Shown: positions 3-22,622 of the stretch, piece after piece
Layout: each line of letters begins with the position of its first letter
Numbering within the stretch: position 1 is the stretch's first letter
Origin: a virus
Reading direction: 5' to 3' (one strand)
DNA length: 43,531 nt
Virus record (IMG/VR): IMGVR_UViG_3300007515_000620
Coordinates: 1-43,531 of that record
Position numbers and translations under genes: made by a program
Notes under the pieces: model-generated
Database searches by the model: none
What the model saw: only the letters and a program-made list of their open reading frames with translations
What the model was told of the DNA's origin: nothing

Positions 3-764
3 CATATAATTGATACAGTTACCGAATTACCTCCCGGTTATGATTTATATCTTGATTGTACTGGACTTAAACAACAATTTGTAAAAGATAAAACACGACT
101 GCCTTTACCAGAAGGACATTTAGTTGATAGAGTTTGGGTTTGTCCGTGGGAATTGGAAGAAGAATGTAATTTTACCAGAACTATTGCAAGAGACGCTGGT
201 TGGCAATTTATAATTAATTTACAAAATAGGGCCGGTATTGGTTATGTATATAGTAGCAAATATATGAGTGATGATGATGCGAAATCATATTATAAAGAGT
301 TAACTGATGGTAGAATACCGTACGGTGCATTTCCATGTACTCCAACCATTCAACCAAAATTGATTAAATGGGATCCACATTATCTAGCAAACCCATGGTC
401 TGATAATGTTGTAGCATTAGGACTTTCAAATGGATTGTTAGACCCGTTAGAAGCAAATGTTTTATATACAACTGTATATGGTATTCAAACTCTCGCTAAA
501 TGTTTAAACAGAGGTTACGGTCCGCGATCATATAATAAAGCAGTGGCCAGAGTACATTATGAAAATAGTGATTTTATTTTACATCATTATATGTTAAGTA
601 ATAGAACAGACACACCTTTTTGGGAATATTATTCTAAATGTGATGTTAGAGAAACATTATGGAAGAATTATAGAAAAAGAACAAATAAACAAACAAACTT
701 ATTTGTTGATGCTATCTGGGCAACGCTAGGTTTGTATTATGATGAATTTACATACTATGAATAA
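3..764 (+). CDS. Flavin-dependent (tryptophan-type) halogenase, C-terminal part
   Basis: The reading frame is open from the left edge, so only the last 253 residues or so are present; the N-terminal FAD-binding part and the catalytic lysine region lie outside the window. Family landmarks are clear: DAGWQFIINLQNRAG followed by GYVYSSKYMSDDDA corresponds to the conserved GW...PL..R.G.GYVYSS segment of PF04820 halogenases. LDPLEANVLY matches the LEPLE segment that carries the conserved glutamate of tryptophan halogenases. The family uses FADH2, O2 and halide to make hypohalous acid that halogenates an electron-rich substrate. A phage halogenase (VirX1, from a cyanophage) is known, so viral carriage has precedent. 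The substrate cannot be inferred. The stop overlaps the start of the first radical SAM gene. Confidence 0.85.
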   Translation, partial: HIIDTVTELPPGYDLYLDCTGLKQQFVKDKTRLPLPEGHLVDRVWVCPWELEEECNFTRTIARDAGWQFIINLQNRAGIGYVYSSKYMSDDDAKSYYKELTDGRIPYGAFPCTPTIQPKLIKWDPHYLANPWSDNVVALGLSNGLLDPLEANVLYTTVYGIQTLAKCLNRGYGPRSYNKAVARVHYENSDFILHHYMLSNRTDTPFWEYYSKCDVRETLWKNYRKRTNKQTNLFVDAIWATLGLYYDEFTYYE

Positions 765-1920
765 AAGTCTTTGTTTAGCACCATGGAATCATATTCAAAT
801 TAATGCAGAAGGTATAGTTAATCCTTGCTGCATGTTCTATCCTACTGAATATCATAAAAAATATAATAATTTACAAGAAGCATTTGATGGGCCAGAAAAT
901 AAAGATCTGAGACAAAGAATGTTAAATGGGGAAAAGATTGAGGGATGTAGTAAATGTGATTTATATGAAAGCATGAACAAGTTTTCGTACAGAGAACATT
1001 TTAACAGGAAATATGCTATCGAAGATGATATACAAGTAATTGATGCTCCATCTATTAAAAATCCTAAAATTCGAGAATTAGAATTTGCACTTGATAATAC
1101 TTGTAATTTTAAATGTGTAACATGTAGTTCGAGATTTAGTTCAAAGTGGTATGAAGATGATTTAGAATTAATAAAAGAAGGAATATCGAGACATTCACAA
1201 GCAATAAAAAATAAAACACAAATTCTTAGGAATGTTAATAATTTAGATGATTTAGATTTAAGTGAATTAAATTATTTGAAATTAATAGGCGGAGAGCCTT
1301 TTATAAATGACAGATACGTTGACATTTTAAAAAAGTTAAATTTAGAAAATTTAGATTTAGCATTAATTACAAATAATTCTGTTTTTCCAAAAAAGTGGAT
1401 TGAATATATTTTAAAAGTTAAACAATTAAATCTTCATATAAGTATAGATGGTGTATATGATGTTGGAGAATTTGTTAGAAATGGAATGAACTTTGAAAAA
1501 TTTCATAAGAATTTAATTCAATGGAAAAAATTATCTGAAGAATATGATCATATTGATATAAAGTTTAATTTTGTTGTCCATTCGTTAAACATTTTAAATT
1601 TAAAATCAACTGTAGATTATTTAATAAGTTTGGGATTTGTTATAAATGTTGATCATGTAAAAGAAGAAATATTTGAAGTAGATTTTTTAAAAGATCCTGA
1701 ATATATTAATTTGTCATATTTACCAGATCGATTAAAAAAGGTTGTAGAAGGTCAATTAGATTTTAGTTTAAATGGAAAACGAGATATGATAGTTGATTTC
1801 ATGTATTCAAATAAACATGATAAAAATATAATGGAACAATTTTTAAAATATTGTATGTTTTTGGAACAACGAAAACCTCTTCCTGCTCAATGCGAATTTA
1901 TGGTGTCCAATGCATTCTGA
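757..1920 (+). CDS. Radical SAM protein with N-terminal twitch/SPASM-like domain (rSAM 1)
   Basis: The radical SAM signature CNFKCVTC gives [4Fe-4S] ligands C116, C120 and C123, and LIGGEPF is the SAM-contacting GGE motif. An N-terminal cysteine set (C6, C24-C25, C64, C67, in the arrangement MNKSLCLAPW ... NPCC ... GCSKC) matches the twitch-type radical SAM family in which the auxiliary cluster domain precedes the barrel. The ATG at 757 is preferred over ATGs at 739 and 742 because it begins the conserved C-x-x-P-W block; it overlaps the halogenase stop. Substrate unknown. The protein looks intact. It is the first of thirteen radical SAM genes in this operon. Confidence 0.88.
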   Translation: MNKSLCLAPWNHIQINAEGIVNPCCMFYPTEYHKKYNNLQEAFDGPENKDLRQRMLNGEKIEGCSKCDLYESMNKFSYREHFNRKYAIEDDIQVIDAPSIKNPKIRELEFALDNTCNFKCVTCSSRFSSKWYEDDLELIKEGISRHSQAIKNKTQILRNVNNLDDLDLSELNYLKLIGGEPFINDRYVDILKKLNLENLDLALITNNSVFPKKWIEYILKVKQLNLHISIDGVYDVGEFVRNGMNFEKFHKNLIQWKKLSEEYDHIDIKFNFVVHSLNILNLKSTVDYLISLGFVINVDHVKEEIFEVDFLKDPEYINLSYLPDRLKKVVEGQLDFSLNGKRDMIVDFMYSNKHDKNIMEQFLKYCMFLEQRKPLPAQCEFMVSNAF

Positions 1921-2470
1921 ATATATCTATCCCGGAACACATGACGATATAGTCCAAGAGTTTTGTGATAAATGTAATGATTTAAATTATATGAATAACA
2001 ATTCTTTTGAATCAATGAAATGGTATTGGGGTGAAGTTCAATGGGTGGGCACATTCTTAGATGATGTATTAGTTTCTTTAAGTGGTATTCATGGATTTCC
2101 GGAACTCGGTAAAGATGCTTTTAGGATGATGTTTAGAGGTGTTACATTACCAGGAATAAAAGTTTCCGATACAGATTTTCTTAGGACCAGACCAATAAGA
2201 AGGCATTCAAATAAACATGGGAGTTTTAAAAAATTTGTAAATTTTCAACAAATGCCATTACAACAAAAATGGGGTTATGAACAAAATGAGAATGCAATAT
2301 TTTATGTAACATTTAATATAGATCCTAAAATAAGTACGGGTGCTTATACTAAACTTGGTGATAAAAGTTTTAAAATGATTAGAGCAGTACGACGACATTG
2401 TAAAAATCTTGCTTATCACGGTAGGATGAACATTTATAACGTTGAACAAGAAGTTTATGTCTTATTGTAG
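1910..2470 (+). CDS. Unrecognised protein, possibly GNAT-like
   Basis: A 186-residue soluble protein with no signal peptide or membrane segment. The stretch around FRMMFRGVTLPG and the later NFQQMPLQQKWGYEQNENAIFY give the general impression of an N-acyltransferase fold, but the canonical acetyl-CoA loop (R/Q-x-x-G-x-G/A) is not clearly present, so function is left open. The ATG overlaps the end of rSAM 1 by 11 bases, and the 3' end overlaps the next radical SAM gene, so it is co-translated with them. Confidence 0.6.
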   Translation: MHSEYIYPGTHDDIVQEFCDKCNDLNYMNNNSFESMKWYWGEVQWVGTFLDDVLVSLSGIHGFPELGKDAFRMMFRGVTLPGIKVSDTDFLRTRPIRRHSNKHGSFKKFVNFQQMPLQQKWGYEQNENAIFYVTFNIDPKISTGAYTKLGDKSFKMIRAVRRHCKNLAYHGRMNIYNVEQEVYVLL

Positions 2471-3506
2471 TTTACCATTTAAACAAATAACCATGAAAAA
2501 TTTTGATGGTGATGGATGTTCGCGATTTCTTCCTTGTAGTCATATATTAAAATCAGAAGTAGAAGATGCGTGCACGGTTAGACCTTTAAAGGGAAAGTTA
2601 GATCTTACACCGGAAGAAGGATTTAATCTTTATCAAGATGTTCGCGATAGCATGCTGAAAGGTGAACGGCATGAGCTGTGTAAGGTTTGTTGGGATAAGG
2701 AAGATAGAGGTAAAACATCGTATAGGCAGAACATTGATAAGTTTATTGAAGATAGTGAAAAATATATTATTGATATAAATTGTGGTAATGTTTGTAATCT
2801 CGCATGTAGAATGTGTGCTCCAGGTTTAAGTAGAAAACTTAAAAAAGATTATAATTTTTTTGTTGAACATAAACTTGATTTTAAAACACCTACTGATAAT
2901 TTTTTTACTTTAGATCTCGATCCTGATCCTATGAATTCAATTCAATGGAAATGGATAACAGAAAATACCGATAAGATTGGAGGGCTCAAGTTAGCTGGTG
3001 GAGAACCTCTTGTAAATAAATCAGTACTTTCTCTTTTTCGAAAAATGGTACTCGATGGAATAAGTAAAAATATTAATTTAAGTTTTTATACAAATGGTTT
3101 AGAAATATCAAACCATACAGAATTGTTAAATCAGTTTAAAGGTGTATATGTAAATTTTTCTGTGGAGGCTGTTGGAGAATTATATCATTATATTCGATAT
3201 CCTGGTTTTTTTGAAGAATTTGATTTTAATGTTAAATATTTTATGGATAGGAGTACTAATTTAAAAGATTTAGCATTTAACGTTGTAGTGTCTATATTAA
3301 ATGTTCTTGATCTTGAAGCCCTTAAAGAATGGCTGCCCACAGATAATGTAGGTTATGTAAATGTGTTCCCAGAAGATCGAGGAATAAGTGTAAAACATTT
3401 ATGGAAAGATAGAGAAAAAGTTTTAAATGAAATCCTTTTATTTGATAAATCTAGAAATCAAAGTTATAAAGATTATTTACATCCAGATTTGGTCGAGTGG
3501 TTATGA
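2457..3506 (+). CDS. Radical SAM protein with N-terminal twitch domain (rSAM 2)
   Basis: Radical SAM ligands are C113, C117 and C120 in CNLACRMC; LAGGEPL is the GGE motif. The N-terminal cysteine block runs from MSYCSLPFKQ through DGDGCSRFLPC to ELCKVCWDKEDRG, again the twitch-before-barrel layout. The CxxCW.+ED segment is shared with rSAM 4 and rSAM 12, which suggests one subfamily. An in-frame TTG lies at 2442, but the ATG at 2457 begins the conserved block and follows a purine-rich AACAAGAAG, so it was chosen. It overlaps the preceding gene by 14 bases. Confidence 0.87.
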   Translation: MSYCSLPFKQITMKNFDGDGCSRFLPCSHILKSEVEDACTVRPLKGKLDLTPEEGFNLYQDVRDSMLKGERHELCKVCWDKEDRGKTSYRQNIDKFIEDSEKYIIDINCGNVCNLACRMCAPGLSRKLKKDYNFFVEHKLDFKTPTDNFFTLDLDPDPMNSIQWKWITENTDKIGGLKLAGGEPLVNKSVLSLFRKMVLDGISKNINLSFYTNGLEISNHTELLNQFKGVYVNFSVEAVGELYHYIRYPGFFEEFDFNVKYFMDRSTNLKDLAFNVVVSILNVLDLEALKEWLPTDNVGYVNVFPEDRGISVKHLWKDREKVLNEILLFDKSRNQSYKDYLHPDLVEWL

Positions 3507-4486
3507 GTTGTTATTATAGTCATTGTTCAATAAGTTTTAAATCACAATATTCTACACATTGTGCTTTTAATTCTGATCCTCTTTGCACATTTGAAGAAAC
3601 TATACTGCCCTCTGAAATTATAAAGTCTAAAGGGTTTCAAAAAAGTAGAAAAATTCTAGATAATAATAATTGGCCAGCCGGTTGTGATCATTGCAGAATC
3701 CCGGAAACTAAACGTTTAACTTCTTCCAGATTTGATCATCCTATTGAACATAAAAATTTAGAAAGAATTGAAATAAGATTTTCAAATGCTTGTAACATGA
3801 CATGCTTACATTGTGGACCGGAATTTTCAAGTCTATGGGCTAAGAAATTAAATTATTCTGGGCCCATATTGGGTTTATCCTCCGAACAGGTTTTTGAAAT
3901 ATGCGAAGATTTAAAAAATATCCCGACAATACGAAGAGTTGTTTTATCAGGGGGAGAACCTTTAGTAAATAAAAATTTTTATAAATGCGCGCAAAGTTTA
4001 TCAGAACATCCAAGCGCAAGTGAAATGGTTGTATCCTTTCACACAAATTTAAATCCCGGTATTCCAATAGACTTTGATAATATAAATTCAACTTTTGGAA
4101 AATTTAAAGAAGCTTATATGGTTGTATCGATTGATGGGGGTAAAGATCTTTATCCTATTTTTAGAGGAGGAGATTGGAATACATTGATACATAATATTGA
4201 CAAAGCCTTATGCATGAATATTAATGTCGATGCTACTATGAGCCTTACAACTTATCAAATGAAAGATATAAAAAATTGCTATCTAGATGTTCTACCTTTA
4301 GGTTTTCGTGAATTAAGAACAATGTATATTCATTCACCAGAAGAATTTGATCCGAAGCATGCTGTGAGTCCTGAAACAATGAAAAATTATGATTTTGTTT
4401 TAGACCATATTAGAGAAAACTATTCAGGGAGTTTAAGAGACTCTGCTTTGTGGTATCTAAATATATGTAAGGAGCGTTTACTATGA
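3503..4486 (+). CDS. Radical SAM protein, NSD/ETILPS subfamily (rSAM 3)
   Basis: Radical SAM ligands are C97, C101 and C104 in CNMTCLHC; LSGGEPL is the GGE motif. The N-terminal domain has the pattern HCAFNSDPLCTF-EETILPSEI-...-WPAGCDHC, shared with rSAM 8 and rSAM 9 but not with the other members, so these three form a second subfamily. The ATG at 3503 overlaps the preceding stop as ATGA; an upstream in-frame GTG at 3497 is less likely. The C-terminus ends in SALWYLN, resembling the SGLWYLN stretch of rSAM 8. Confidence 0.87.
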   Translation: MSCYYSHCSISFKSQYSTHCAFNSDPLCTFEETILPSEIIKSKGFQKSRKILDNNNWPAGCDHCRIPETKRLTSSRFDHPIEHKNLERIEIRFSNACNMTCLHCGPEFSSLWAKKLNYSGPILGLSSEQVFEICEDLKNIPTIRRVVLSGGEPLVNKNFYKCAQSLSEHPSASEMVVSFHTNLNPGIPIDFDNINSTFGKFKEAYMVVSIDGGKDLYPIFRGGDWNTLIHNIDKALCMNINVDATMSLTTYQMKDIKNCYLDVLPLGFRELRTMYIHSPEEFDPKHAVSPETMKNYDFVLDHIRENYSGSLRDSALWYLNICKERLL

Positions 4487-5397
4487 TGAAAGCCGTTACA
4501 GTTAAAAATTTAGATTCATTAACAAGAGAACGTGTTATAGAATTATTATATGAAACTAGATTAATCATAATTGAAAATGAAAATATAGTACCAGAAAAAG
4601 AATTGGTGCAATTTTATCATCACCTCGGAGATCCTGTATCTTTTGATAATGAATATATGTCTGATGAATATGCCAACGAATGGTCCAAAGGTTACAGAGA
4701 ACTTATTCCCGTAAGAAATCAAGAATTATCAGGTTATGGCCCTCCAGGTTTATTTTCTGGTGGAGAAGATGGTAAGGTGCCATGGCATTTAGAATCTCAA
4801 AATAGAGATACTCATGATGACCTCGCTTGTTTTGCTATGAGGTCTTTACCAGACACTGGCGGCGATACTTACTTCATGGATCAAAAAATTATGTATGATA
4901 ATCTTATAAAATTATTTCCTGAACTTGAAGAACATGAAGTTGATTGGAGTAATAGATTTGCTGCCGAAGAACCAGAAAATGATCTACCATATAATCCATG
5001 GACAAAGTGGGATGAAAAATGCATTAAAGGAGGTGACGGTTGGAATTTTATGAGAATGAAAGATATAGATGGAAAATATTTAATAGATAAAGAAGTTAAA
5101 TCTAAACCCCTAGTTACAAAAAATACTATCACAGGCCAACGTGGATTAATGTTTCCTTGCCAGACAGTTTTTAATTTAAAACCTAAATCAGATTTTTTAT
5201 TTCAAGTTTTAGAAAAAGAATGTGAAAAAGAAGAATATCAATATTGCCATAAATGGAAATCTGGTGATATTTTAATTAATGATATTCAACATTCTCTACA
5301 TAAAAGAGAGCCATATACCGGTGATAGATTAATGTATAGATCTTCAATTTATATGCCAGAAAATCCGAATGATCCTAGAAAACAATTTTTGCATTAA
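4483..5397 (+). CDS. TauD/TfdA-like Fe(II)/2-oxoglutarate dioxygenase
   Basis: 304 residues. The iron-binding triad appears as H102-x-E104 in VPWHLESQNRDTHDD plus a distal histidine near H269 or H272 in GDILINDIQHSLHKRE, followed by R residues in GDRLMYRSSIY that would hold 2-oxoglutarate. The segment FAMRSLPDTGGDTYF is characteristic of TauD-type enzymes (a.....GG.T.f). The family hydroxylates or oxidatively trims small molecules. Substrate unknown. The start overlaps the previous stop as ATGA; a second ATG follows at 4486. Its place between radical SAM genes and an FkbM methyltransferase suggests a tailoring role. Confidence 0.78.
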   Translation: MMKAVTVKNLDSLTRERVIELLYETRLIIIENENIVPEKELVQFYHHLGDPVSFDNEYMSDEYANEWSKGYRELIPVRNQELSGYGPPGLFSGGEDGKVPWHLESQNRDTHDDLACFAMRSLPDTGGDTYFMDQKIMYDNLIKLFPELEEHEVDWSNRFAAEEPENDLPYNPWTKWDEKCIKGGDGWNFMRMKDIDGKYLIDKEVKSKPLVTKNTITGQRGLMFPCQTVFNLKPKSDFLFQVLEKECEKEEYQYCHKWKSGDILINDIQHSLHKREPYTGDRLMYRSSIYMPENPNDPRKQFLH

Positions 5398-6064
5398 TGA
5401 TAATGATTTTGTTATTCAAAGAATGTTGTCGACTGATTGGTTTGAAATTACAAAGCACCAGTATACTAATATAATTTTTGAAAATATTAATTTCGCAGAC
5501 CATGAAGAATTAACGTTACTGGATATCGGTTCACATTTGGGATTATGGACGATTCGAATAGCAGAACGATGTAAACTTTTAGATCTTAAATTTAAAGGAT
5601 ATTTGTACGAACCTTCTTCTAATAATGTTCAATGTTTAAAGAAAAATATTAAAACATTTTTAGATGATTGTGATATTGAAATTTATAATAACCTTGTAAG
5701 CGACCATAATTCTTATATGGAAGCCGCTGAACGTTTTAATGAAGGTTCATTCGATACTTTTTATTGTGGTAAATTAGTTCAATCTAAAATACCAGATCAT
5801 GATTTAAAAGGAATAAAGGTTATTATATTACCTTGTATGTCCACTGATTTTGAAATTTTACAATTATTTAAGAACACGTATTTACAAGAAGATGTTTTAA
5901 TTGTGGCCCAATTGATTGAAAAAAATTTAGCAAAAAATAATCATACAAGACAAGAAGTTATAGATTTTTTAAAAAGAAAAAAATTTAAAGTTAAAAAATA
6001 TGATTTTGATTATAGTCATTTAGATCCCCACTTAGAACATACATTTTTTATATTTTCAAAATGA
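5369..6064 (+). CDS. FkbM-like SAM-dependent methyltransferase
   Basis: 231 residues. LDIGSHLGLW (residues 51-60) is the class I methyltransferase motif I, and YLYEPSSNN (around residue 81) matches the acidic motif II of FkbM proteins (Y.fEP...N...L..N). The later TDFEILQLF also fits the FkbM TDFEIL/K..K region. The family O-methylates sugars and small molecules. The ATG at 5369 overlaps the dioxygenase gene by 29 bases; an ATG at 5426 is a fallback but would shorten the N-terminus. The next gene starts inside its last codons. Confidence 0.75.
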   Translation: MILENNFCINDNDFVIQRMLSTDWFEITKHQYTNIIFENINFADHEELTLLDIGSHLGLWTIRIAERCKLLDLKFKGYLYEPSSNNVQCLKKNIKTFLDDCDIEIYNNLVSDHNSYMEAAERFNEGSFDTFYCGKLVQSKIPDHDLKGIKVIILPCMSTDFEILQLFKNTYLQEDVLIVAQLIEKNLAKNNHTRQEVIDFLKRKKFKVKKYDFDYSHLDPHLEHTFFIFSK

Positions 6065-7134
6065 ATAATTTATGTAAGATTCCCTTTTTACACAAGTATA
6101 TTAATTTTATTGATACGAGTGAAAAGCCCTGTTGTATTTTTCAAGGTCAAGAACCAATTCTTGATGTTCAGAAAAAGTTTTTAAACAATGAAAGGCCCGA
6201 AGGATGTTCTGAATGTTGGAGAAGAGAAGATAATAATATTTTAAGTAAGAGACAGCATTTTAATAATTCATTTCCAGACCACAATATTAATTCAGGTATA
6301 AAAACATATGATTTGAGATTAGGTATTACATGCAATTTAAAATGTGTAATGTGTGGACCTCACTTATCTACAAAATGGAATGAAGATAAAAATATATTTG
6401 AAAAACATATTAATAAGATAAATGATACTCCTCATGAAATCGAAGAATTAAATTTTGATGAAGCAACAGAAATATATTTTGCAGGTGGAGAACCTTTTTA
6501 TATGAAAGAGGTTTATGATTGTTTATTGAAGTTATCAGAAAGAGAATTTAATCGAAAAAATACTAAAATTAGAATAAACACAAATGCTATTATTGATGAA
6601 GATAATAAAATTTTAAAGCTTTTAAACAATTTTGAAAAAATAGAATTTACTATTTCAGTTGAAGGAGTTGAAGAGGTTAATGATTATATCAGATATCCTT
6701 CTAAATGGAAGGACTTTTTAAAAGGAGTTAAATTGATTTATGAAATGTCTGATCAACCAAAAACTGTAGAAGAAATGTTTAAATGTAATAGAAGCGTGGC
6801 GTTTAATATAACGATAAGCTGTTTAAATCTCATGAATATTTTTACTTTATATAGTTGGTTATCTGATAAAAATTATTTGTATGTTGCTAATTTTGTAGAA
6901 GAACCAAAATTGTTGAATATTAATTCTTTAAAAATAAATGTGATAGATGATTTCTTATATGAGCACGAACGGTTCGATTACAAATATGATCATTTACAAG
7001 ATGTCGTAAAATATATTGAAGAAAATTATTCATATGATGAATCTTTAAATTCCAAAATGAAATTATACTTACAAGATCTCGATATAAAAAGAAATACAAA
7101 TAGTAAACAGCTATTAAATTGGTGCTGGGTATGA
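6061..7134 (+). CDS. Radical SAM protein with N-terminal twitch domain (rSAM 4)
   Basis: Radical SAM ligands are C91, C95 and C98 in CNLKCVMC; FAGGEPF is the GGE motif. N-terminal cysteines are C5, C24-C25, C49 and C52 (EKPCC, EGCSECWRRED). The CWRRED segment links it with rSAM 2 and rSAM 12. It is shorter at the N-terminus than rSAM 1. The start codon overlaps the FkbM gene by 4 bases. Confidence 0.87.
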   Translation: MNNLCKIPFLHKYINFIDTSEKPCCIFQGQEPILDVQKKFLNNERPEGCSECWRREDNNILSKRQHFNNSFPDHNINSGIKTYDLRLGITCNLKCVMCGPHLSTKWNEDKNIFEKHINKINDTPHEIEELNFDEATEIYFAGGEPFYMKEVYDCLLKLSEREFNRKNTKIRINTNAIIDEDNKILKLLNNFEKIEFTISVEGVEEVNDYIRYPSKWKDFLKGVKLIYEMSDQPKTVEEMFKCNRSVAFNITISCLNLMNIFTLYSWLSDKNYLYVANFVEEPKLLNINSLKINVIDDFLYEHERFDYKYDHLQDVVKYIEENYSYDESLNSKMKLYLQDLDIKRNTNSKQLLNWCWV

Positions 7135-8261
7135 GTGTATTTTGCAGTGCTCCCTTTAATGGATTTTATCAAGGACTAGATGGCAAGATATCTGTGTGTT
7201 GTCAAACTCCTGTTTTAGTTGATAATAAAAATAACTATAACGAGGCAGTTCATGATCCCAAAATAGTAAAATTAAGACAAGATTTCTTAAATGGTAGGCT
7301 ACCGGAAGAATGTAAGATGTGTACTCCGCGAGTCAGGCAAGAAACTACCAAATTATGTGGATCAAAAGATAAATCTCAAGTTGCGGCAGATTATTATGAA
7401 CCAGTATTTTTAGACCTCCTATGGTCAAATAAATGTAATTTTGCTTGTATGGGATGTACTCCTAGAATTAGTTCGACTATGTTGAAATATAAATCAGCGG
7501 TTGATATAGTTGATCCCCTAAATGAGGAAGATGCTAATTATAAATGGAATTCCAAAGATGAACAACAACGTAGAATAAATTATATTTTACAAAATATAAA
7601 AACAATAAAAGGAATACATTTGAATGGTGGTGAGCCTCTAATGCAAGAAGGTTTTTACGATTTATTAGAACGATTGATAGAACTTAACGCAACTCATATA
7701 GGAATTTGGGCTCATACTAACGGAAGTGTTTCACAATATAAAGGAAAAAATATTATAGATTTTTTAAAATCATTTGATAGATGTAAAATTGTAATGAGTC
7801 ATGATGGAATTGGAAAAAAAGGAGAATACGTAAGATATGGATTACAGCAATCTATTTGGTTAAGAAATTATAAGAAATTTTCAGAATCAGGAATTAAAAC
7901 AGATGTCCAAGTTTGTTATAATATTTTTAATTGTCTGGATTTAGAAGAAATGGCTGATTGGTATGAAGAGCATTTACAAGTTACACCTAATTTAAGTTTA
8001 TGGAATTGGCCCCCTTCGTATTCGGCAAAGTATATTAAAAGAATACCAAAATTATATGATAGAGCTTTACATATATTAGAAACACATGGAAAGAGATTTA
8101 GAAAATATGAATATGTATTGGATTTTATGAAGGACACCGTTGAAGATAAAGAACTCGAGGACATGCATTACAAGTTCAGTGAAAGTATATCCAAATTTGA
8201 TGAATTAAGAGGCACGGATTTTGAAACCACTTTTCCAGAATTGAGGGAATTGTATTATTAA
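7131..8261 (+). CDS. Radical SAM protein with N-terminal twitch domain (rSAM 5)
   Basis: Radical SAM ligands are C102, C106 and C109 in CNFACMGC; LNGGEPL is the GGE motif. N-terminal cysteines are C5, C23-C24 (ISVCCQ) and C61, C64 (EECKMC). The ATG at 7131 overlaps the preceding stop as ATGA, so it is preferred over the in-frame ATG at 7119. The C-terminal part holds a WNWPPSYS stretch not seen in the neighbours, so it may act on a distinct substrate. Confidence 0.86.
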   Translation: MSVFCSAPFNGFYQGLDGKISVCCQTPVLVDNKNNYNEAVHDPKIVKLRQDFLNGRLPEECKMCTPRVRQETTKLCGSKDKSQVAADYYEPVFLDLLWSNKCNFACMGCTPRISSTMLKYKSAVDIVDPLNEEDANYKWNSKDEQQRRINYILQNIKTIKGIHLNGGEPLMQEGFYDLLERLIELNATHIGIWAHTNGSVSQYKGKNIIDFLKSFDRCKIVMSHDGIGKKGEYVRYGLQQSIWLRNYKKFSESGIKTDVQVCYNIFNCLDLEEMADWYEEHLQVTPNLSLWNWPPSYSAKYIKRIPKLYDRALHILETHGKRFRKYEYVLDFMKDTVEDKELEDMHYKFSESISKFDELRGTDFETTFPELRELYY

Positions 8262-11325: not shown

Positions 11326-12104
11326 TGATCTTTAATGTGAATAATACAAAAGTTGAAGTACTCATACCTGACACAGTACCAAAACTTAAACCGGAACTTG
11401 CAGATCAATTATACGCTAATCATGAACCGAATGAAATATATGAAATTCTCAGAGACTATAAAAGAAAAGATCATTATGAAAAATCTGTGAATACTGTTGG
11501 AATATGGATGTCCGGAGGAGCTGATAGTTCATTATTAGCTTATGTATTAGCAAAGAAAATCAAAGATGAAAATTTAGATATTAAAATTCAACCATTATCA
11601 GTTAGAAGAGGTCGGCCTAATAATCCAATATATGCTGGCAATGTAATTGATTTTATTGAGGAAGATTTAGATATTAAAATGAATGAACACATCGTTTATT
11701 ATCCGCCAATGGAAGATGAACATTATAGGGAAATACAAATTTTTCAAGATAAGGATAATGAAAATTTCAAAATAGATTTATTTCAAATATTATATTCTGG
11801 TATAACATGTAATCCGCCCTCTGATGATAAAAGTATTCCTAGGAACAAAGAACGAACTAGAGATGAAGAAGCTGAAAGAAAATTAGTAACGTATAATGGT
11901 ATTCGTTATTATATGAATCCTTTTTTCTGTATAAACAAACGTGGATTAAAAATGATTTACGAAGAATTAGGATTGATTGATAAATTATTCCCAGTAACTT
12001 ATAGTTGCGAAGGGACGGCTGAACAAACTAAAACGCATACACAACATTGTAAAAGATGTTGGTGGTGTCAAGAAAGATTTTGGGCTTTTGGAAGATATGT
12101 CTAA
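11325..12104 (+). CDS. QueC-like PP-loop ATPase
   Basis: 259 residues. MSGGADSS (residues 62-69) is the N-type ATP pyrophosphatase P-loop. The C-terminus carries SCEG ... HCKRCWWCQER, which parallels the CGRCPSCSER zinc site of the true QueC encoded at 25808, including the trailing ER. An internal region (TRDEEAERKLVTYNG) is not QueC-like, and overall similarity to the window's QueC is limited to these landmarks. The fold activates a carboxylate or carbonyl by adenylation for amide, nitrile or thio transfer. Its position among radical SAM genes rather than with folE and queC suggests a separate role. Confidence 0.75.
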   Translation: MIFNVNNTKVEVLIPDTVPKLKPELADQLYANHEPNEIYEILRDYKRKDHYEKSVNTVGIWMSGGADSSLLAYVLAKKIKDENLDIKIQPLSVRRGRPNNPIYAGNVIDFIEEDLDIKMNEHIVYYPPMEDEHYREIQIFQDKDNENFKIDLFQILYSGITCNPPSDDKSIPRNKERTRDEEAERKLVTYNGIRYYMNPFFCINKRGLKMIYEELGLIDKLFPVTYSCEGTAEQTKTHTQHCKRCWWCQERFWAFGRYV

Positions 12105-13515
12105 TATTTGCTATTATTCTCTAACAGGAATAAATTATAAAAATCAATTTATAACTTCTTGTGCTATTAATTCTGATAGGTTAGTTAAATTTTCAGAAAC
12201 AATATTACCATCTCAAGTATTTAATTCACAAAATTTTAAAAATTTAAGAAAAAAATTATGTGAGGGAAATTGGTCATCCGGTTGCCATTTATGTGAAGAC
12301 ATTGAAAAAAATCCAAATGCATTTTCAATGAGACAAGATTATGTATTTGAAGATGGTAAATTCGAACACGAAGAAGAAGATTATGTTTATAATTATTATG
12401 ATCCCTCTACCGGGTCTATGGACCCGAAAGGATGTAGACATATTGAAATGAGATTCAGTAATGTATGCAATATGAGTTGTTTACATTGTAGCAGTGTATT
12501 TTCTACAGGATGGCAGAAAAAATTAGAAACATATAAAACAGACGAAGAAGATGAAAAATATAATTTAGAGCAACTTCTCAATACGTTACACTTAGTCGGA
12601 GACGAAGACAAAAAAAGATTAGGTTTAAATTTAAATGATATTAAAAAGATTTGTGAAGATTTAAATAATAATTTTCCTAATATTAATAGGGTTGAAATAT
12701 CTGGTGGAGAGGTTTTAATACAAAGGCAGTTTTATCGCTTTTTAGAAATGTTATCAGATCATCCTAATCGCAAGAATATTACCATTTCATTTTATAGTAA
12801 TTTTAATTCAGATTTTGATATTGAATATTTAACTAAATTATTGAATAATTTTGGAAAGAGTGTGATATCTATATCTATAGATTCAAGTGAAAACATTTAT
12901 CCATATTTTAGAGATGGTAATTGGGAGGTTTTAAAAAATAATATATTAAAGTTCAGAGAGATTAATAAGTTCACACAGTTAGATGGAGTAGTTACATTTT
13001 CTGCTTATCAGTTCATGGACATATATAATGTTTATAAATCTATTATTTCTTTAAATTTACATCATATTAAAACGTCATTAGTACAAACGCCAAAATATTT
13101 AAATCCATGTGTTTTATTATTTGATTATGAAAAGGAATTGAGAGAAGATTTTAAGGAAACTCAAAAAATGATATATGATCTATATGAATCTCGAATGGAA
13201 AATATTCAAGAATTTAAAAAAGATAATATAGGTGTAACTATTGAAAAAAGAGAAACTGGATTAGAACCAGAACAAAAAGAAGAAGGTATACGAGGACAAT
13301 TTTTAAAAGGTGAATATGTTTTTTCGGATCTTGATTCTGGTTTGTGGTATTTAAATAATGCCGGTCATTATATTTTTAATAAAAAGAATTCTAATTATAT
13401 GAATTATAATTCATTTTTAATTTATATAAAAAAATCTGATAACCACACAGGTCAAAATTTTAATGAATATTTTACTAAATTTAAATATATCGATGAAGAA
13501 ATTATTAGGGTTTAA
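12097..13515 (+). CDS. Radical SAM protein, NSD/ETILPS subfamily, long form (rSAM 8)
   Basis: 472 residues. Radical SAM ligands are C124, C128 and C131 in CNMSCLHC; ISGGEVL is the GGE motif. The N-terminal region TSCAINSDRL-VKFSETILPSQV-...-WSSGCHLC aligns with rSAM 3 and rSAM 9. It has an acidic insertion between twitch and barrel (around residues 85-110) and a C-terminal extension ending in NEYFTKFKYID. The ATG at 12097 was chosen over an in-frame TTG at 12088; it overlaps the end of the PP-loop gene. Confidence 0.86.
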   Translation: MSNICYYSLTGINYKNQFITSCAINSDRLVKFSETILPSQVFNSQNFKNLRKKLCEGNWSSGCHLCEDIEKNPNAFSMRQDYVFEDGKFEHEEEDYVYNYYDPSTGSMDPKGCRHIEMRFSNVCNMSCLHCSSVFSTGWQKKLETYKTDEEDEKYNLEQLLNTLHLVGDEDKKRLGLNLNDIKKICEDLNNNFPNINRVEISGGEVLIQRQFYRFLEMLSDHPNRKNITISFYSNFNSDFDIEYLTKLLNNFGKSVISISIDSSENIYPYFRDGNWEVLKNNILKFREINKFTQLDGVVTFSAYQFMDIYNVYKSIISLNLHHIKTSLVQTPKYLNPCVLLFDYEKELREDFKETQKMIYDLYESRMENIQEFKKDNIGVTIEKRETGLEPEQKEEGIRGQFLKGEYVFSDLDSGLWYLNNAGHYIFNKKNSNYMNYNSFLIYIKKSDNHTGQNFNEYFTKFKYIDEEIIRV

Positions 13516-14865
13516 ATGAAAGAATGTTTTTACGCATTAGGCGGCCTTAATTATAAAAATGGTTTTATTACAACTTGTCCGCGGCAGGCTGATCAATTAG
13601 TATTCGCGAACGAAACTACTTTACCATCTGAAATATATAATCATGAAAATATAAAAGAACTTAGAAGAAAATTATATAATGATCAATGGCCATCCGGTTG
13701 TGATACATGTGAAGATATGGAACGAGATGGTTTAAGATCTATGAGATTAGATTTTTCACTTATAGATAATTGGTTTTATAAATCAGAATTTAAAGAAAAA
13801 AGAGAAGGGTCAAATCGAAATAGATTTGCCGAACAAATAATTGTTCGCGAACCGTTTGATAATCTGATGAGTTTATATAATGACAAAACTCACGAAGTAG
13901 GATTTAAAGGATTGCGACATGTAGAAATTAGATTTAGTAATGCTTGTAATTTTGCTTGCTTACACTGTTCAAAAGTTTTTTCTACAGGATGGTCTAGAAA
14001 ATTACAAAACTATGTACCGGATAAAGAAGTATTAGAACATGATTTAAAACAACTCAGAGGAACTGAACACAGGCACGGACCAGATGATAAAGGTGAAATA
14101 CAATTAAGCACAGAGAATGCATTAAAAATTATAGAAGATTTAAATGAAAATTTTCCAAATGTAGAATTTATTGATTTTGCTGGTGGTGAATTATTATATC
14201 AAAAACAATTTTTTCCAACACTTAGAAAGTTAGCAGAACATCCTAATGCAAAAAATATGTTAATATCTTTTCATACAAATTTTAATGCAGATTTTAGTGT
14301 GGAAGAATTAACTGAAGCTTTAAAACCCTTTAACGAGACCTGCATCATTATCTCAGTTGATTCAGGAAGAAATACTTATCCATACTTCAGGCACGGTGGA
14401 AATTGGGATAAATTAAAACAGAATATACGAGATTTTAAAAAAATAAATACTTTTACACATATTGATGTAAGTATTACAACTTCGGTTTATCAAATACTGG
14501 ATCTTTATGATGTTTTTGATTCTATGTTAGAATTAGATTGTCACTTGGATGCTTCCATCGTACAATCGCCACCTTATATAAATCCATCTATATTAATGCA
14601 TAAGTTTAAAGAAGAAGTGATTGGAGATTTTGAAAAAACTTTTGATATGTTATTTGATTCAAATTCAAAATATATCGAAGGTGAAAGAGGTGCAAAGGCT
14701 TGGTTAAAATATATTTTTGATTATATTCTTAAAACAAACATAGATGAAAAACAATATAATAAATTTTTAGTCTATAGAAAAAAGTCTGATAAAATATGGC
14801 AACAAAATTTTAATGACTATTTTAAAAATTATCAAATTGTAAATAACGAGTTAGTACGTGCTTAA
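13516..14865 (+). CDS. Radical SAM protein, NSD/ETILPS subfamily, long form (rSAM 9)
   Basis: 449 residues. Radical SAM ligands are C144, C148 and C151 in CNFACLHC; the GGE motif reads FAGGELL. It shares with rSAM 8 the N-terminal QADQLVFANETTLPSEI and GCDTCED blocks, the CLHCS-VFSTGW run after the cluster, and a C-terminal extension ending in NDYFKNYQIVNNELVRA. These features mark a tandem duplication of rSAM 8, since diverged. It starts directly after the rSAM 8 stop. Confidence 0.86.
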   Translation: MKECFYALGGLNYKNGFITTCPRQADQLVFANETTLPSEIYNHENIKELRRKLYNDQWPSGCDTCEDMERDGLRSMRLDFSLIDNWFYKSEFKEKREGSNRNRFAEQIIVREPFDNLMSLYNDKTHEVGFKGLRHVEIRFSNACNFACLHCSKVFSTGWSRKLQNYVPDKEVLEHDLKQLRGTEHRHGPDDKGEIQLSTENALKIIEDLNENFPNVEFIDFAGGELLYQKQFFPTLRKLAEHPNAKNMLISFHTNFNADFSVEELTEALKPFNETCIIISVDSGRNTYPYFRHGGNWDKLKQNIRDFKKINTFTHIDVSITTSVYQILDLYDVFDSMLELDCHLDASIVQSPPYINPSILMHKFKEEVIGDFEKTFDMLFDSNSKYIEGERGAKAWLKYIFDYILKTNIDEKQYNKFLVYRKKSDKIWQQNFNDYFKNYQIVNNELVRA

Positions 14866-15769
14866 AGTTTTAACTAATAATGGTTTAAAATCTTGTAACG
14901 ATCAAACCATTAAAGATAGAACCAATTTTAAAGGATGGTATTGCCGGCAGACGAATTATATTATTGATGCCGCCTGGTGGGAAGTTGGAACAGCTGTGTG
15001 CAGAACCCCTTATCCTGTTTCTATAGATGAATATTCAGGACCCAAAGTGATAATGTGTCCTAATGAGAATTGCTTCTGTGGAACCGATATAGCTATGCCA
15101 AAAGGAAAAACAGAAGATCATTTATTAATGCTTCACTGTATGAAAACAAAAGATAAGTTAGAACCCGAAGATGAAATTTATGCTATAGATAGTGATGAAG
15201 GTAGAGTAGTTGATTATTATACAGACCGAAAGTGTAATTTTAGTTGCTCTTATTGTGATCCACGAAGCCATGATTATACTGGAGAATTAACATCATTAGA
15301 AAGAATGAAGGAGGCATGGACAAAAGTTAATCCTCAGAATGTTTCTAAAATAAATATCTCAGGAGGAGAATCAACATTAATCCCACACTACTTAGATTTT
15401 GTAAAATGGTTAAAACAACGAGAGCCTAAAGCAATAATATGGACTTTAACCAATGGCACCAGACAAGTACCTTATTTAAGAGAGTTAAATAGATACTCAT
15501 TAATAAATTTTTCAATCCATCCTGAATTTATTAATGATAGATATATTAATAAGTTGGAAAGATTTTGTGAAGAAATACAATTACCCTGTAAAATGAAAAT
15601 AATGTATTTACCAAAATTTGAAGATATAGTAAATAAGGTATATGAAAGATTTAAAGACAAATTTAAAAAGCTTTATGTTAAGACTGTGCCTCTATGGGAT
15701 ATGAATAATAACATGAAATTAATGAATTATACACCTGAACAGTTTAAATTTATTCATGCGACTCAGTGA
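14858..15769 (+). CDS. Radical SAM protein with cysteine-rich N-terminal extension (rSAM 10)
   Basis: 303 residues. Radical SAM ligands are C126, C130 and C133 in CNFSCSYC; ISGGEST is the GGE motif. The 120 residues before the barrel hold at least seven cysteines (C13, C29, C48, C67, C72, C74, C94), including CPNENCFCG, which could bind an extra cluster or zinc; the pattern is unlike the twitch block of the others. The start is GTG, overlapping the rSAM 9 stop by 8 bases; no ATG is available nearby. Confidence 0.82.
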   Translation: MLKVLTNNGLKSCNDQTIKDRTNFKGWYCRQTNYIIDAAWWEVGTAVCRTPYPVSIDEYSGPKVIMCPNENCFCGTDIAMPKGKTEDHLLMLHCMKTKDKLEPEDEIYAIDSDEGRVVDYYTDRKCNFSCSYCDPRSHDYTGELTSLERMKEAWTKVNPQNVSKINISGGESTLIPHYLDFVKWLKQREPKAIIWTLTNGTRQVPYLRELNRYSLINFSIHPEFINDRYINKLERFCEEIQLPCKMKIMYLPKFEDIVNKVYERFKDKFKKLYVKTVPLWDMNNNMKLMNYTPEQFKFIHATQ

Positions 15770-16784
15770 AGAAGATTTTACAAAAATACCGTGGAAGGAT
15801 ATCGAAGCCCTTGGTACAAAAACAATGTTGTATCGGGACACATTTACAGTATCTTGGTTATTAGGTAGATTTTGTAATTACAGATGTTCTTATTGTTGGC
15901 CATATGCCAGATCAGATAAAAAAGATCATAGACCAACTGAACTTTGTATTAAAACTATTGATGAAATAAAGAGACAAGCAAGAGAACAAGGATTTAATTC
16001 TTTTAACTGGTCTTTATCCGGTGGCGAACCCACTTTTCATCCAGGTTACTTAGATATATTACAACATCTCGCGGATGATGAAGAAAATTGTAATCGTCAG
16101 CGTATACATATGACTTCAAATTGTTCTCGTAACTTGAAGTGGTTTGAGACTTATGTTAAGTATGCTCAAAAATTTAATAAAGCTTCGATTACAGCTTCCG
16201 CTCACTTTGAACATTTGGACACACAAGATAAAATAGCTAACTTTGCTGATAAGTTAGTTTTTCTTCAAGATAATGGAATTAGAATAACAATTAATATGGT
16301 TATGATCCCGGAAAGATTCTGGACATTGACAGAACATGTTTTATATTTTAAAGATCGTGGTATACACACAACATTAAAACCACAATCTAATCCTACAGCA
16401 ACGAAAGTTGTAGACGGATATACTCAAGGGCAATTAGAAATTTTACATAATGACTCTAGACCAACAGATCTCGAAATAGATTTAATAGATTCCAAAGGAA
16501 ACATATATGAAGTGGATCAAGCCGAGAGATTTAATGCGTTTAATTTTAATGAATTCAAAGGCTGGATCTGCTCGTCGGGTTTTCGTAGTATTATTATACG
16601 CGAGCCTTGCGGGAGCATTAAGCGGTCATATTCTTGCTCTGATGACCCTTTAGGAAATATTGAAACAGGGTTTAAATTATTTGATAAACCCATGCCTTGC
16701 ATAACCGATAATTGTGTTAGCTCCGCAGATAGTAAAATTCCAAAAAGAAAACCTGAGAATAAATTTCCCCTATGGAAAAATTAA
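15756..16784 (+). CDS. Radical SAM protein with C-terminal cysteine cluster (rSAM 11)
   Basis: 342 residues. Radical SAM ligands are C40, C44 and C47 in CNYRCSYC; LSGGEPTFHPGY is the GGE motif in its most canonical form here. At least five cysteines follow the barrel (WICSSG, REPCGS, YSCSDD, PCITDNC), consistent with an auxiliary site. The CSYC motif links it to rSAM 10, and the two overlap by 14 bases, so they may act as a pair. No twitch domain precedes the barrel. Confidence 0.85.
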   Translation: MRLSEEDFTKIPWKDIEALGTKTMLYRDTFTVSWLLGRFCNYRCSYCWPYARSDKKDHRPTELCIKTIDEIKRQAREQGFNSFNWSLSGGEPTFHPGYLDILQHLADDEENCNRQRIHMTSNCSRNLKWFETYVKYAQKFNKASITASAHFEHLDTQDKIANFADKLVFLQDNGIRITINMVMIPERFWTLTEHVLYFKDRGIHTTLKPQSNPTATKVVDGYTQGQLEILHNDSRPTDLEIDLIDSKGNIYEVDQAERFNAFNFNEFKGWICSSGFRSIIIREPCGSIKRSYSCSDDPLGNIETGFKLFDKPMPCITDNCVSSADSKIPKRKPENKFPLWKN

Positions 16785-17890
16785 AAAATTTCTGCGCACT
16801 CCCTTTTACTCAATTTACAGTTTCTTCATTTAATGAATACCAGTTATGTTGTGATAACTCGGGTGAATCTAAAATGTTCAGTAATAAAAATTCTATTTTA
16901 GAATATTTTAATTCTGATTATATAAATGATAAAAGAAAATCTTTTTTAGAAGATAAAAGATTAGATATATGTCAATCTTGTTGGAAACGAGAAGATCGCG
17001 GTTTAAATTCCAGAAGGATAACAGGGTTAACTAGTGATTATAAAGAACAAGTAGAAAGATATAAAAAGGGTTTATCTTTAGTTCCCAATCATCCTGTTTT
17101 CAAAATTAAATTTGGAAATTTATGTAATCTTAAATGTATGATGTGTGGTCCTCAATCATCATCTGCTTGGGCGCAGCATAAAGAAAAACATAATGAAGGA
17201 ACTTGGCCAATATATGAAAATACATTTGATGAACAAACATATGAAGATTTAAAACAAATTTTACCTAATGTAAATCGTATTATTATATCGGGCGGGGAAC
17301 CCTTAATGAACGATAGGTATTATGATTTTTTAGAATGGCTTATAGGTCATAAGTTCGCTAACAAATTAAAAATAACAACCCTTACTAATGCTACAAAAAT
17401 ACCAGATCATTTATTCCAATATAAAAAAGCCTTTAAACGATTATCTTTTAATATATCAATTGATGGTATAGAAAAGAAAGATGAATATATTAGAACAGGA
17501 ACTGTTTGGAAAAAAAAGATTGAGAATATTAAAAAATTACAATCGGCTTATGATATAGGATTTGAAATTACAGTCCAAACATTAAATGTAGGGTACTTAG
17601 ATGATATTCAAATTTATTTAAAAGAAAATTTTAATAAGACATCACCATTATCAAATATTTTAGTGACACCTAGTTATTTTGCTGTTGACTGTTTACCTAA
17701 TCCGATAAAACGAGACTATCAGCAAAAGAGTCAAAGATATATTACTGAAGATATTTCGAATTTATTAAAACTGAATGTTCCACCTGATAATAATCTTTTT
17801 ATCGAAGGAATAAAATTTCTTAAATTATGTGATAAAAGAAATAAAACTAATTTACTTAATGAATGGCCGGAGTTTGAAGGATTTTATTAA
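16772..17890 (+). CDS. Radical SAM protein with N-terminal twitch domain (rSAM 12)
   Basis: 372 residues. Radical SAM ligands are C118, C122 and C125 in CNLKCMMC; ISGGEPL is the GGE motif. N-terminal cysteines are C8, C26-C27 (YQLCCD) and C67, C70 (CQSCWKREDRG). The CxxCWKREDRG block is nearly the same as in rSAM 2 (CKVCWDKEDRG), placing both in the same subfamily with rSAM 4. It overlaps rSAM 11 by 13 bases. Confidence 0.87.
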   Translation: MEKLKNFCALPFTQFTVSSFNEYQLCCDNSGESKMFSNKNSILEYFNSDYINDKRKSFLEDKRLDICQSCWKREDRGLNSRRITGLTSDYKEQVERYKKGLSLVPNHPVFKIKFGNLCNLKCMMCGPQSSSAWAQHKEKHNEGTWPIYENTFDEQTYEDLKQILPNVNRIIISGGEPLMNDRYYDFLEWLIGHKFANKLKITTLTNATKIPDHLFQYKKAFKRLSFNISIDGIEKKDEYIRTGTVWKKKIENIKKLQSAYDIGFEITVQTLNVGYLDDIQIYLKENFNKTSPLSNILVTPSYFAVDCLPNPIKRDYQQKSQRYITEDISNLLKLNVPPDNNLFIEGIKFLKLCDKRNKTNLLNEWPEFEGFY

Positions 17891-18931
17891 ATGTTTATTT
17901 CAGATCAAATAAAACATATTCATTTTGAGCCAACACAAAGATGTCAAGCACGATGTTCAATGTGTGATAGAACAAATAATCCACATATGAAAAATGCTGA
18001 AATATCTTTCAATGAATTTATTAGTATGGTTGATATAGATTTCGTTCACCAATTGAATTCATTATTAATGTGTGGAAATCATGGTGATCCAATTATATCT
18101 AATGAAACCCTTCCCATTTTTAGATATCTCAGAGTTAATAATCCCGATATGTATCTTCACATGACTACTAACGCTGGTGCCAGAGATGATGAATGGTGGA
18201 AAGAATTAGTTGCAATATTGGGTTCCAGGGGAAAAGTTACTTTTAGTGTAGACGGATTAGAAGATACAAATCACATATATCGCGTCAATGTGAATTGGAA
18301 AAAAGTAGAACATTCCATGGATGTTTTTACCCAAGCCGGTGGAAAGGGTATTTGGGTATATTTAATTTTTGAACACAACGAACACCAAGTTGACGAAGCG
18401 GAACGAATGGCTAAATTATTCGGACTCGAATTCGTAAGAAAAAAGTCTGGTCGATGGGTGCAAAGTCATAAAAATGAGAAAGTTAACGAGAAGATAACGA
18501 TCAAAGGTAATTACATTAAGCCACCAAGCAAGCCAGAGCATCAGAATAAGAGCGTGAATACGTATGATAAATTGGTTGAGAGTCATGGTACCTTTCAAAA
18601 ATATTTGGATCAAACAAAAATAAAGTGTAAATCATTAATTACTAATGAAATATATATAAGTGCTGAGGGTTTAGTAACTCCTTGTTGTTGGACTGCTGGT
18701 AAACTTTATAAGGCATATGAAGAAATTGGTAAAAATCAAATATGGTCATATTTTGATGACCTAAAAGATATTAATGCTCTTCATACACCTCTTCGAGATA
18801 TTATCGAAGGAGGGTTTTTTAAAAAATTACAAAAAAGTTGGAATATATCTTCTTGCGCGGACGGGAAACCAAAGGTATGTGCTGAGAAGTGTGGAACAGG
18901 TTTTGATGCTTTTAGTGATCAATGGAAATGA
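17891..18931 (+). CDS. Radical SAM protein with C-terminal SPASM-like domain (rSAM 13)
   Basis: 346 residues. Radical SAM ligands are C18, C22 and C25 in CQARCSMC; the GGE position reads MCGNHGDPI, matching the GDP variant in rSAM 6. C-terminal cysteines in IKCKSL, TPCCWTAG and CAEKCGTGF form a SPASM-like site. It begins directly after the rSAM 12 stop and is the last radical SAM gene of the array. Confidence 0.86.
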   Translation: MFISDQIKHIHFEPTQRCQARCSMCDRTNNPHMKNAEISFNEFISMVDIDFVHQLNSLLMCGNHGDPIISNETLPIFRYLRVNNPDMYLHMTTNAGARDDEWWKELVAILGSRGKVTFSVDGLEDTNHIYRVNVNWKKVEHSMDVFTQAGGKGIWVYLIFEHNEHQVDEAERMAKLFGLEFVRKKSGRWVQSHKNEKVNEKITIKGNYIKPPSKPEHQNKSVNTYDKLVESHGTFQKYLDQTKIKCKSLITNEIYISAEGLVTPCCWTAGKLYKAYEEIGKNQIWSYFDDLKDINALHTPLRDIIEGGFFKKLQKSWNISSCADGKPKVCAEKCGTGFDAFSDQWK

Positions 18932-22607: not shown

Positions 22608-22622
22608 ATCTAGAAAGGAATT

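Follow-up and report, generated by a model that had tools for sequence, protein, structure and literature searches.

Carriage of many radical SAM (rSAM) genes by a T4-like phage is not new. Numerous such genes were reported in Campylobacter phages in 2010, with no function given (Timms 2010, PMC2853527). Among these, CP220 and CPt10 are T4-related, like the virus studied here, and carry 11-12 rSAM genes. Their cassettes are interchangeable, one exchangeable unit of ~10 kb combining five rSAMs with a putative amidinotransferase (PMC2853527); the CP220 cassette also encodes two nucleotide-diphospho-sugar-transferase-domain proteins. A 183-kb marine T4-like environmental genome, TARA_ERS488813_N000010, has 12 rSAM genes (Nishimura 2017, PMC5332604). 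The passages of that report on this genome, which we liken to our virus by description, give these genes as a count together with Fe-S genes, without cluster or pathway analysis, and assign them no function. Finally, pelagimyophages hold variable rSAM cassettes in a glycosyltransferase-rich variable region, the host-recognition cluster (Zaragoza-Solas 2020, PMC7029224).

The marine virus described here is IMG/VR record IMGVR_UViG_3300007515_000620, analysed over positions 1-43,531; this whole stretch of 43,531 nucleotides is the window. Its gp59, gp32 and gp5 domains identify a T4-like phage, as the first-pass annotation had supposed, and an alpha-type tmRNA hints at a possible alphaproteobacterial link. 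MAG titles for loci on phage-like contigs (L158-L161 and L180) were regarded as mis-binned virus and given no weight in assigning a host. In contrast to CP220/CPt10, this virus has 13 rSAM genes in one run without gaps. Three of the CP220/CPt10 cassette rSAMs match the SPASM-like group of r13 and r7 in our numbering, and no N-twitch array was detected in the CP220 stretch compared. Of the features of a CP220-type cassette, the rSAM run and the exchange between relatives were both seen here; the amidinotransferase occurs in relatives and not in the window. A cultured SAR11 phage, Pelagibacter phage Mosig (MT647606), shares u202- and r13-like homologues with our cluster and is the only deposited phage in which u202 was found. 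Pelagimyophage clusters, Mosig included, differ from this virus in having few rSAMs, no r11 and another genome position.

Thirteen radical SAM enzymes in a gapless gene string

A PF04055 profile search of the 43.5-kb record returned exactly 13 matches, each clearing the gathering cut-off with E from 1e-8 to 2e-16, on plus-strand ORFs between 739 and 18931 that form one gene string of ~18 kb. This bears out the earlier claim of thirteen different rSAMs in a single string, and the ligands and layouts described with it were recovered too: CxxxCxxC is present in 13/13 and GGE in 10/13, the exceptions being r6, r7 and r13. Seven enzymes pass the 170-bit cut-off of N_Twi_rSAM (NF033640), namely r1 (739..1920, with an alternative later ATG at 757; 259.8 bits), r2 (2442..3506; 196.9), r4 (6061..7134; 214.3), r5 (7119..8261; 231.3), r8 (12088..13515; 186.3), r9 (13516..14865; 214.5) and r12 (16772..17890; 288.1). 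The N-twitch-like r3 (3497..4486) scores 128.2 bits, under that cut-off, and falls with r8 and r9 in one supported clade, in which r8 is a diverged paralogue of r9 (43% identity, with a DNA repeat). A barrel followed by a C-terminal, SPASM-like Cys block characterizes r6 (9420..10409; alignment A2), r7 (10399..11325) and r13 (17891..18931; C-terminal Cys invariant in alignment A6). Against the SPASM profile PF13186, r7 is marginal (20.4 vs a 21.5-bit cut-off), and r6 and r13 have no listed match. Two enzymes are distinct from these layouts: r10 (14858..15769; PF04055 44.3), with a Cys-rich N-terminus, and r11 (15756..16784), with four invariant C-terminal Cys. Pairwise identities of 16-31%, rising to 35-43% only within r3/r8/r9, are so low that these genes are not recent copies of each other.

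Compared with the PDB, the N-twitch profile has its top match, a weak one, in the sugar-nucleoside rSAM BlsE; taken together, PDB matches are mixed (BlsE, GDGT-MAS, SkfB, viperin and MoaA). For r11, the predicted structure (pLDDT 74; TM to MoaA, BlsE and viperin no higher than about 0.5) confirms an rSAM-like fold only. Known identities were considered and set aside: the best score for prokaryotic viperin (NF038283) was 48.3 bits (r1) against a 180-bit cut-off, and scores for QueE and MoaA were likewise below curated cut-offs.

All other genes of the cluster are also on the plus strand. The record starts within a flavin-dependent Trp halogenase (3..764, C-terminal part; PF04820 5.5e-37), which means that the cluster is truncated on its left side. 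Among the neighbours proposed at first pass, this halogenase stood, as did the TauD-type Fe/2OG dioxygenase (4483..5397; PF02668 6.7e-21), a second Fe/2OG oxygenase (2OG-FeII_Oxy, 8261..8827; PF03171 4.6e-09) and the AMP-binding, mini-ANL protein of 202 aa (8824..9432; PF00501 1.4e-19), which covers only the mid AMP-binding domain (profile 168-331 of 384) and has a 67% identical homologue in one relative, G009. The FkbM-like methyltransferase (5369..6064) fell below threshold (TIGR01444 24.3 bits vs a cut-off of 37.7). The PP-loop ATPase (11325..12104) is assigned from its SGGADS motif and weak asparagine synthetase matches (3e-5); in alignment A4 the motif is conserved and the Cys of its C-terminal C..C..C motif are invariant. 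Glycosyltransferase a (18922..19671) is GT-like, from a weak match to phrog_1962 (8e-5) and a conserved D91-L92-D93, and the putative glycosyltransferase b (21689..22327) carries a DLD motif and has no PDB or PHROG match. A small, possibly acyltransferase-like protein (1910..2470) has no library match, and relatives in G006, G007 and G009. Upstream of glycosyltransferase b, u202 (20224..21012) has a predicted class I SAM-methyltransferase fold (AlphaFold pLDDT 84; Foldseek to MTases 1e-7), u210 (21006..21698) is its tandem duplicate (71% DNA repeat; 53% protein) and u196 (19664..20236) a remote relative (hhalign of alignments A3 and A7, probability 92%, E 6.7e-7).

From the halogenase to glycosyltransferase b, the 25 genes at 3-22327 overlap or abut at 24/24 junctions (≤0 bp), which leaves a RiPP precursor ORF no in-line room. 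The earlier remark that no precursor peptide was in view is thereby strengthened for this record: a RiPP cluster has a precursor gene in its operon, and between 739 and 22327 there is no intergenic space. A precursor may be nested, antisense or distant. One 74-aa ORF, conserved and recurrent in related records and without a library match, is a candidate precursor only. Promoter and terminator scans gave a signal not clearly above that of shuffled sequences.

A conserved core in phages and Bdellovibrionota

Close viral relatives are likewise rSAM-rich, and a core of r11, r13, r6/r7, the PP-loop ATPase, the MTase-fold u202 and N-twitch rSAMs is syntenic across 20 phage records. Purifying selection acts on core genes (pN/pS 0.09-0.47), most of all on the hub enzyme and most conserved rSAM, r11 (0.09; 66% mean column identity in alignment A5). 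We found at least 557 r11 matches in IMG/VR and none in 50,697 deposited phage records (tblastn, E≤1e-5), nor did a megablast of 1-22600 find a near-identical deposited relative. Reciprocal best hits of r6 in close relatives reach 57-90%; r7 attains up to 91% in relatives and r9 54-64% in close ones, and r10 has homologues (75-78%) in four relatives only (G001/2/3/5). The outer part, comprising r1-r5, TauD, FkbM and 2OG, is exchangeable. Since r10, r12 and the outer rSAMs are not found in every phage, the product must vary. The position of the cluster in the genome varies as well, so location points to no host or virion target.

A bacterial counterpart lies on Bdellovibrionota chromosomes, where r11, r13, an N-twitch rSAM and u202 occur together, r13 adjoining r11, and where some core loci adjoin glycosyltransferase-like genes. 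Like the phage cluster, these are N-twitch rSAM arrays, the largest with 15 rSAMs over about 30 kb, and have an r11-r13-N-twitch-u202 core; they differ in their chromosomal setting. In the r11 tree the bacterial sequences form a branch separate from viral r11. No PP-loop homologue, a core gene in phages, was present at the Bdellovibrionota r11 loci. Orthology of r12 with the bacterial N-twitch core was considered and is not claimed: among Bdellovibrionota sequences these are the nearest to r12 by distance, but form no supported clade with it.

These data bear on whether there is a pathway at all. It had been held that loss of ligands, or relatives keeping scattered subsets, would speak against a joint pathway; neither was seen for the core, and of the window's genes r1-r5, TauD, FkbM and 2OG proved exchangeable. 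That unrelated auxiliary genes merely gathered in one variable island would fit the free exchange of outer genes and the interchangeable CP220/CPt10 cassettes (PMC2853527). We consider this improbable, given a collinear core, its compact version in bacteria, the gapless arrangement and the finding that each r11 locus tested, at a length of at least 20 kb, has other rSAMs beside it (n=54; median 7 rSAMs, minimum 3). A joint virus-borne biosynthetic pathway, as first proposed, is supported by the collinearity across phage lineages, the purifying selection and the bacterial version. Hundreds of uncultured phages, along with Bdellovibrio-type predatory bacteria, carry forms of this pathway, and the cluster described here is one swappable form of it. 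Known since 2010 and given no function, rSAM-rich T4-like phages now have a defined, conserved core (r11, r13, u202, PP-loop ATPase, N-twitch) matched by a counterpart in bacteria, a small gene set open to expression or deletion, and in phage Mosig a cultured entry point.

Possible products of the pathway

We infer a joint pathway, its sugar-type product, and the destination and purpose of that product. Our tentative reading, plausible though far from secure, is that the genes at 3-22327 form one phage tailoring pathway, most likely for a sugar-type building block or glycoconjugate that is heavily modified. Sister clusters contain giant glycosyltransferases (GT4-FkbM and GT2-GT4-GT9 fusions), an NTP_transferase, an amidinotransferase nearest StrB1 and also near SxtG (at most 5 kb from an rSAM gene in 8/9 records holding it), and a carbamoyltransferase that has TobZ, GdmN and the novobiocin enzyme among its characterised PDB matches. 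In Mosig the u202 homologue adjoins a carbamoyltransferase; close by are a split r13-like rSAM and a gene annotated as a sugar aminotransferase. The amidinotransferase and the two sugar-transferase-domain proteins of the CP220 cassette, and the weak BlsE match of the N-twitch profile, point the same way. Because of these partner genes we favour a sugar or glycoconjugate over a peptide, which narrows an initial list of sugar, nucleoside, lipid or protein modified in place. The amidinotransferase, carbamoyltransferase and large GT genes belong to relatives and not to this window, which has no NDP-sugar pathway gene, and the homology to StrB1 and TobZ leaves the substrates of these putative enzymes unfixed. 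That the window's own glycosyltransferase calls are weak also counts against this reading, as do the non-universal rSAMs and the shifting genome position.

In the proposed scheme, the conserved core (r11; r6, r7, r13; PP-loop ATPase; u202; N-twitch rSAMs) would act with exchangeable tailoring enzymes such as further N-twitch rSAMs, the halogenase, the Fe/2OG oxygenases and the mini-ANL protein. The rSAMs would perform C-H chemistry on carbons of a sugar or cyclitol, and the remaining enzymes would supply methyl, hydroxyl or halide groups and, in relatives, carbamoyl and amidino groups too. Glycosyltransferases would then attach the product. Its most probable acceptor is the infected host's envelope glycan, and virion proteins are a less likely one; the effect may be to mask receptors or exclude competitors. 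If such a glycoconjugate pathway is real, much radical sugar chemistry waits to be tapped in it, and phages would have a new route to remodelling infected cells. It is tempting to go further, on more doubtful ground, and speculate that uncultured phages and Bdellovibrionota share an unrecognised, widespread pathway class, in which batteries of N-twitch/SPASM-like rSAMs combinatorially vary a glycan or glycoside during infection, each phage bringing along a natural-product factory based on radical chemistry that is complete in itself and still evolving.

SPASM/twitch domains, and the Asp/Asn hydroxylase-like and B12-binding proteins of sister clusters, are also typical of peptide modification, and such sets resemble proteusin-type toolkits. 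The rSAMs might thus modify a protein in place (a tail fibre, another virion protein or a host protein), in a trans-acting, RiPP-like manner with the substrate encoded elsewhere; in Mosig the u202 region does lie between tail-fibre genes and VrlC. We regard this as unlikely, if the strongest competitor, since an in-line precursor has no room, partner genes are sugar-type, the bacterial counterpart lacks phage structural genes and the PDB matches are mixed. Slightly less likely again would be a small-molecule natural product, either secreted or intracellular, such as an effector on the host or competitors. The halogenase, ANL and oxygenases of the window, the nitroreductase, aminotransferase and carbamoyltransferase of relatives, the StrB1/SxtG-like amidinotransferase and the arrays in predatory-lineage bacteria would all suit one. 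Against it, the window showed neither NRPS/PKS nor a carrier protein or exporter, much of the ligase is absent from the mini-ANL protein, and glycosyltransferases recur.

GTP cyclohydrolase I and QueC lie adjacent at 24051-26563, which could point to hypermodification of the phage's own DNA. This seems very improbable: the stretches compared in relatives G006-G031 have the rSAM core without deazaguanine genes, so the two modules are separable, and the core is found on bacterial chromosomes too.

The rSAM cluster and its conserved core

The record is a complete IMG/VR virus entry of 43,531 bases and represents a fragment of a T4-like myovirus, with gp59, gp32 and gp5 OB domains. Its 13 radical SAM (rSAM) ORFs, r1 to r13, lie within 739-18931 and all score above the Pfam PF04055 cut-off; CxxxCxxC is present in 13/13 and GGE in 10/13. 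The first-pass annotation was right about their coordinates and motif counts. Its layouts also hold: seven pass the curated NF033640 cut-off ('twitch domain-containing radical SAM protein'), r3 scores below that cut-off and is a relative placed in the r8/r9 clade, r6, r7 and r13 have the barrel first and a C-terminal Cys block, and r10 and r11 each stand apart. Because pairwise identity is only 16-31%, save for r3/r8/r9 at 35-43%, the set is old and diverse rather than the result of recent amplification. From the halogenase through the putative glycosyltransferase GTb, 24/24 gene junctions overlap or abut.

Reciprocal best hits over 20 records divide the cluster in two. Its right part (r6, r7, the PP-loop ATPase, r9, r10-r13, GTa, u196, u202, u210 and GTb) is collinear with three records, G001, G002 and G003 (54-93% identity); r11 (15756-16784), r13 (17891-18931), r7, the PP-loop ATPase and u202 are still present in records that have diverged much further. 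Close sharing of the left part (r1-r5, TauD, FkbM and 2OG) is limited to the record G009 (59-86%). Both parts are under purifying selection (pN/pS 0.09-0.47), strongest on r11. The relatives did not hold the scattered subsets that had been named as evidence against a joint pathway; they retain the core and exchange the edges.

Some relatives carry further rearrangements. The genes for the 2OG oxygenase and ANL protein run as an inverted pair in G009 (L117 5495-6800), where the rest of the cluster is one-directional. In G013 (L125 11027-13292) and G017 (L127 16656-18363) an inserted gene, SGNH/GDSL-like on visual inspection, divides the homologue of r7 into two ORFs, one for the barrel and one SPASM-like. 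Mosig is comparable, with a small ORF standing separately after the barrel ORF (L280 11986-12952). A conserved 74-aa protein recurs in the rSAM clusters of related records (L113 661-885 and relatives).

r11 in viruses and Bdellovibrionota

The most conserved rSAM, r11, serves as a marker, with at least 557 confirmed matches in the viral scan; by tblastn, it is absent from 50,697 deposited phage records. Searches with r12 and with r6/r7/r13 profiles reached 36 virus records, all with rSAMs by Pfam count, commonly 9-19 in the closer ones. ORFs in relatives are simple script calls and other rSAM counts there rely on a home-made profile; by these, the 54 r11 loci of at least 20 kb always have at least 3 rSAMs (median 7). 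Counted over 67 dereplicated viral loci, the most frequent partners up to 10 kb to either side of r11 include an N-twitch rSAM (32 loci), the PP-loop ATPase (28) and an SDR-like protein (28), as well as r13 (23), a further N-twitch rSAM (19), a putative PLP enzyme without a Pfam match (19) and u202 (14).

A scan of 84,980 species genomes also placed r11 on Bdellovibrionota contigs, including ones of 936, 494 and 328 kb. Its surroundings there contain an N-twitch rSAM (15/18 loci), r13 (13/18), u202 (7/18) and glycosyltransferase-like genes; MAG contigs are open to mis-binning, but several chromosomal r11 loci have bacterial housekeeping neighbours. The distribution of r11 in this phylum is patchy (16/241 genomes, in a sample that includes genomes picked beforehand). 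The NF033640 cut-off is passed in 24/97 sampled genomes and 0/14 control genomes, and r11-carrying genomes have 10-37 matches each, some under the cut-off. One stretch of ~30 kb holds 15 rSAM genes, an amidinotransferase and oxygenases. Genomes of Bdellovibrionota have long N-twitch rSAM gene runs with an amidinotransferase and hydroxylases, as at G039:C1 (745-775 kb, L260-L261).

In a maximum-likelihood tree of r11, whose bootstrap is not fully settled, the viral sequences form a 100/100 group separate from the chromosomal ones, except for the long-branch virus G024. This topology argues against repeated recent capture from hosts; since the root is a midpoint, it gives no direction for the original transfer.

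Phages rich in rSAM genes are already known. Campylobacter phages CP220/CPt10 carry 11-12, and have interchangeable cassettes, termed highly unusual (Timms et al. 2010, PMC2853527), a marine T4-like genome has 12 (Nishimura et al. 2017, PMC5332604), pelagimyophages differ in their rSAM cassettes (Zaragoza-Solas et al. 2020, PMC7029224) and rSAM genes are prevalent in Tasman Sea phages (2020 survey, PMC7150976). The available text of these four papers establishes no function for the phage rSAMs. A search of the open-access literature found no earlier report of a conserved core built around r11, of its lack in deposited phages, or of a counterpart in Bdellovibrionota.

Neighbouring genes and the possible product

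Among the proposed neighbours, the halogenase, TauD, the second Fe/2OG oxygenase (8261-8827) and the AMP-binding protein (8824-9432; 202 aa, fragment-like) were confirmed; FkbM scores under the cut-off and both glycosyltransferase assignments are weak, with GTa (18922-19671) matching a PHROG glycosyltransferase family and no match found for GTb (21689-22327). The PP-loop protein (11325-12104) has a conserved SGGADS-type motif, three invariant C-terminal Cys aligned as a C..C..C array, and weak matches to asparagine synthetase. AlphaFold and Foldseek predict a class I SAM-methyltransferase fold for u202 (20224-21012), of which u210 (21006-21698) is a tandem duplicate and u196 (19664-20236) a remote relative.

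Sister clusters add GT4-FkbM and GT2-GT4-GT9 fusions, a nucleotidyltransferase, a nitroreductase, an aldo/keto reductase, an aminotransferase, an amidinotransferase nearest to the inosamine-phosphate amidinotransferase StrB1, and a carbamoyltransferase matching TobZ, GdmN and a novobiocin enzyme; the window has neither of the last two. Mosig, a cultured SAR11 phage, has a homologue of u202, a carbamoyltransferase, an annotated UDP-4-amino-4-deoxy-arabinose aminotransferase and an r13-like rSAM, the last of these split, in one group between its tail-fibre genes and VrlC. The five rSAMs of one CP220 cassette are accompanied by two nucleotide-diphospho-sugar-transferase domains and by a putative amidinotransferase. 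Because the window cluster has no in-line precursor ORF and its relatives carry these sugar-type partners, a sugar-type product, by association with the relatives' genes, is the most economical reading among those first proposed (sugar, nucleoside, lipid or a protein modified in place).

GTP cyclohydrolase I, a candidate DpdA-like protein, QueC and a possible glutamine-amidotransferase-like protein (24051-27210) likely form a 7-deazaguanine DNA-modification module; relatives show that this module and the rSAM cluster can be separated. At 22271-22644 lies a permuted tmRNA gene of alphaproteobacterial type (tag ANNNDYSPAYSYAIAA; Rfam RF04321 120 bits, RF01849 68 bits), and the putative GTb gene ends within it; G001 and G002 have no tmRNA gene, and G003 and G004 have one with a different tag, ADNTDYFPAQVALAA.
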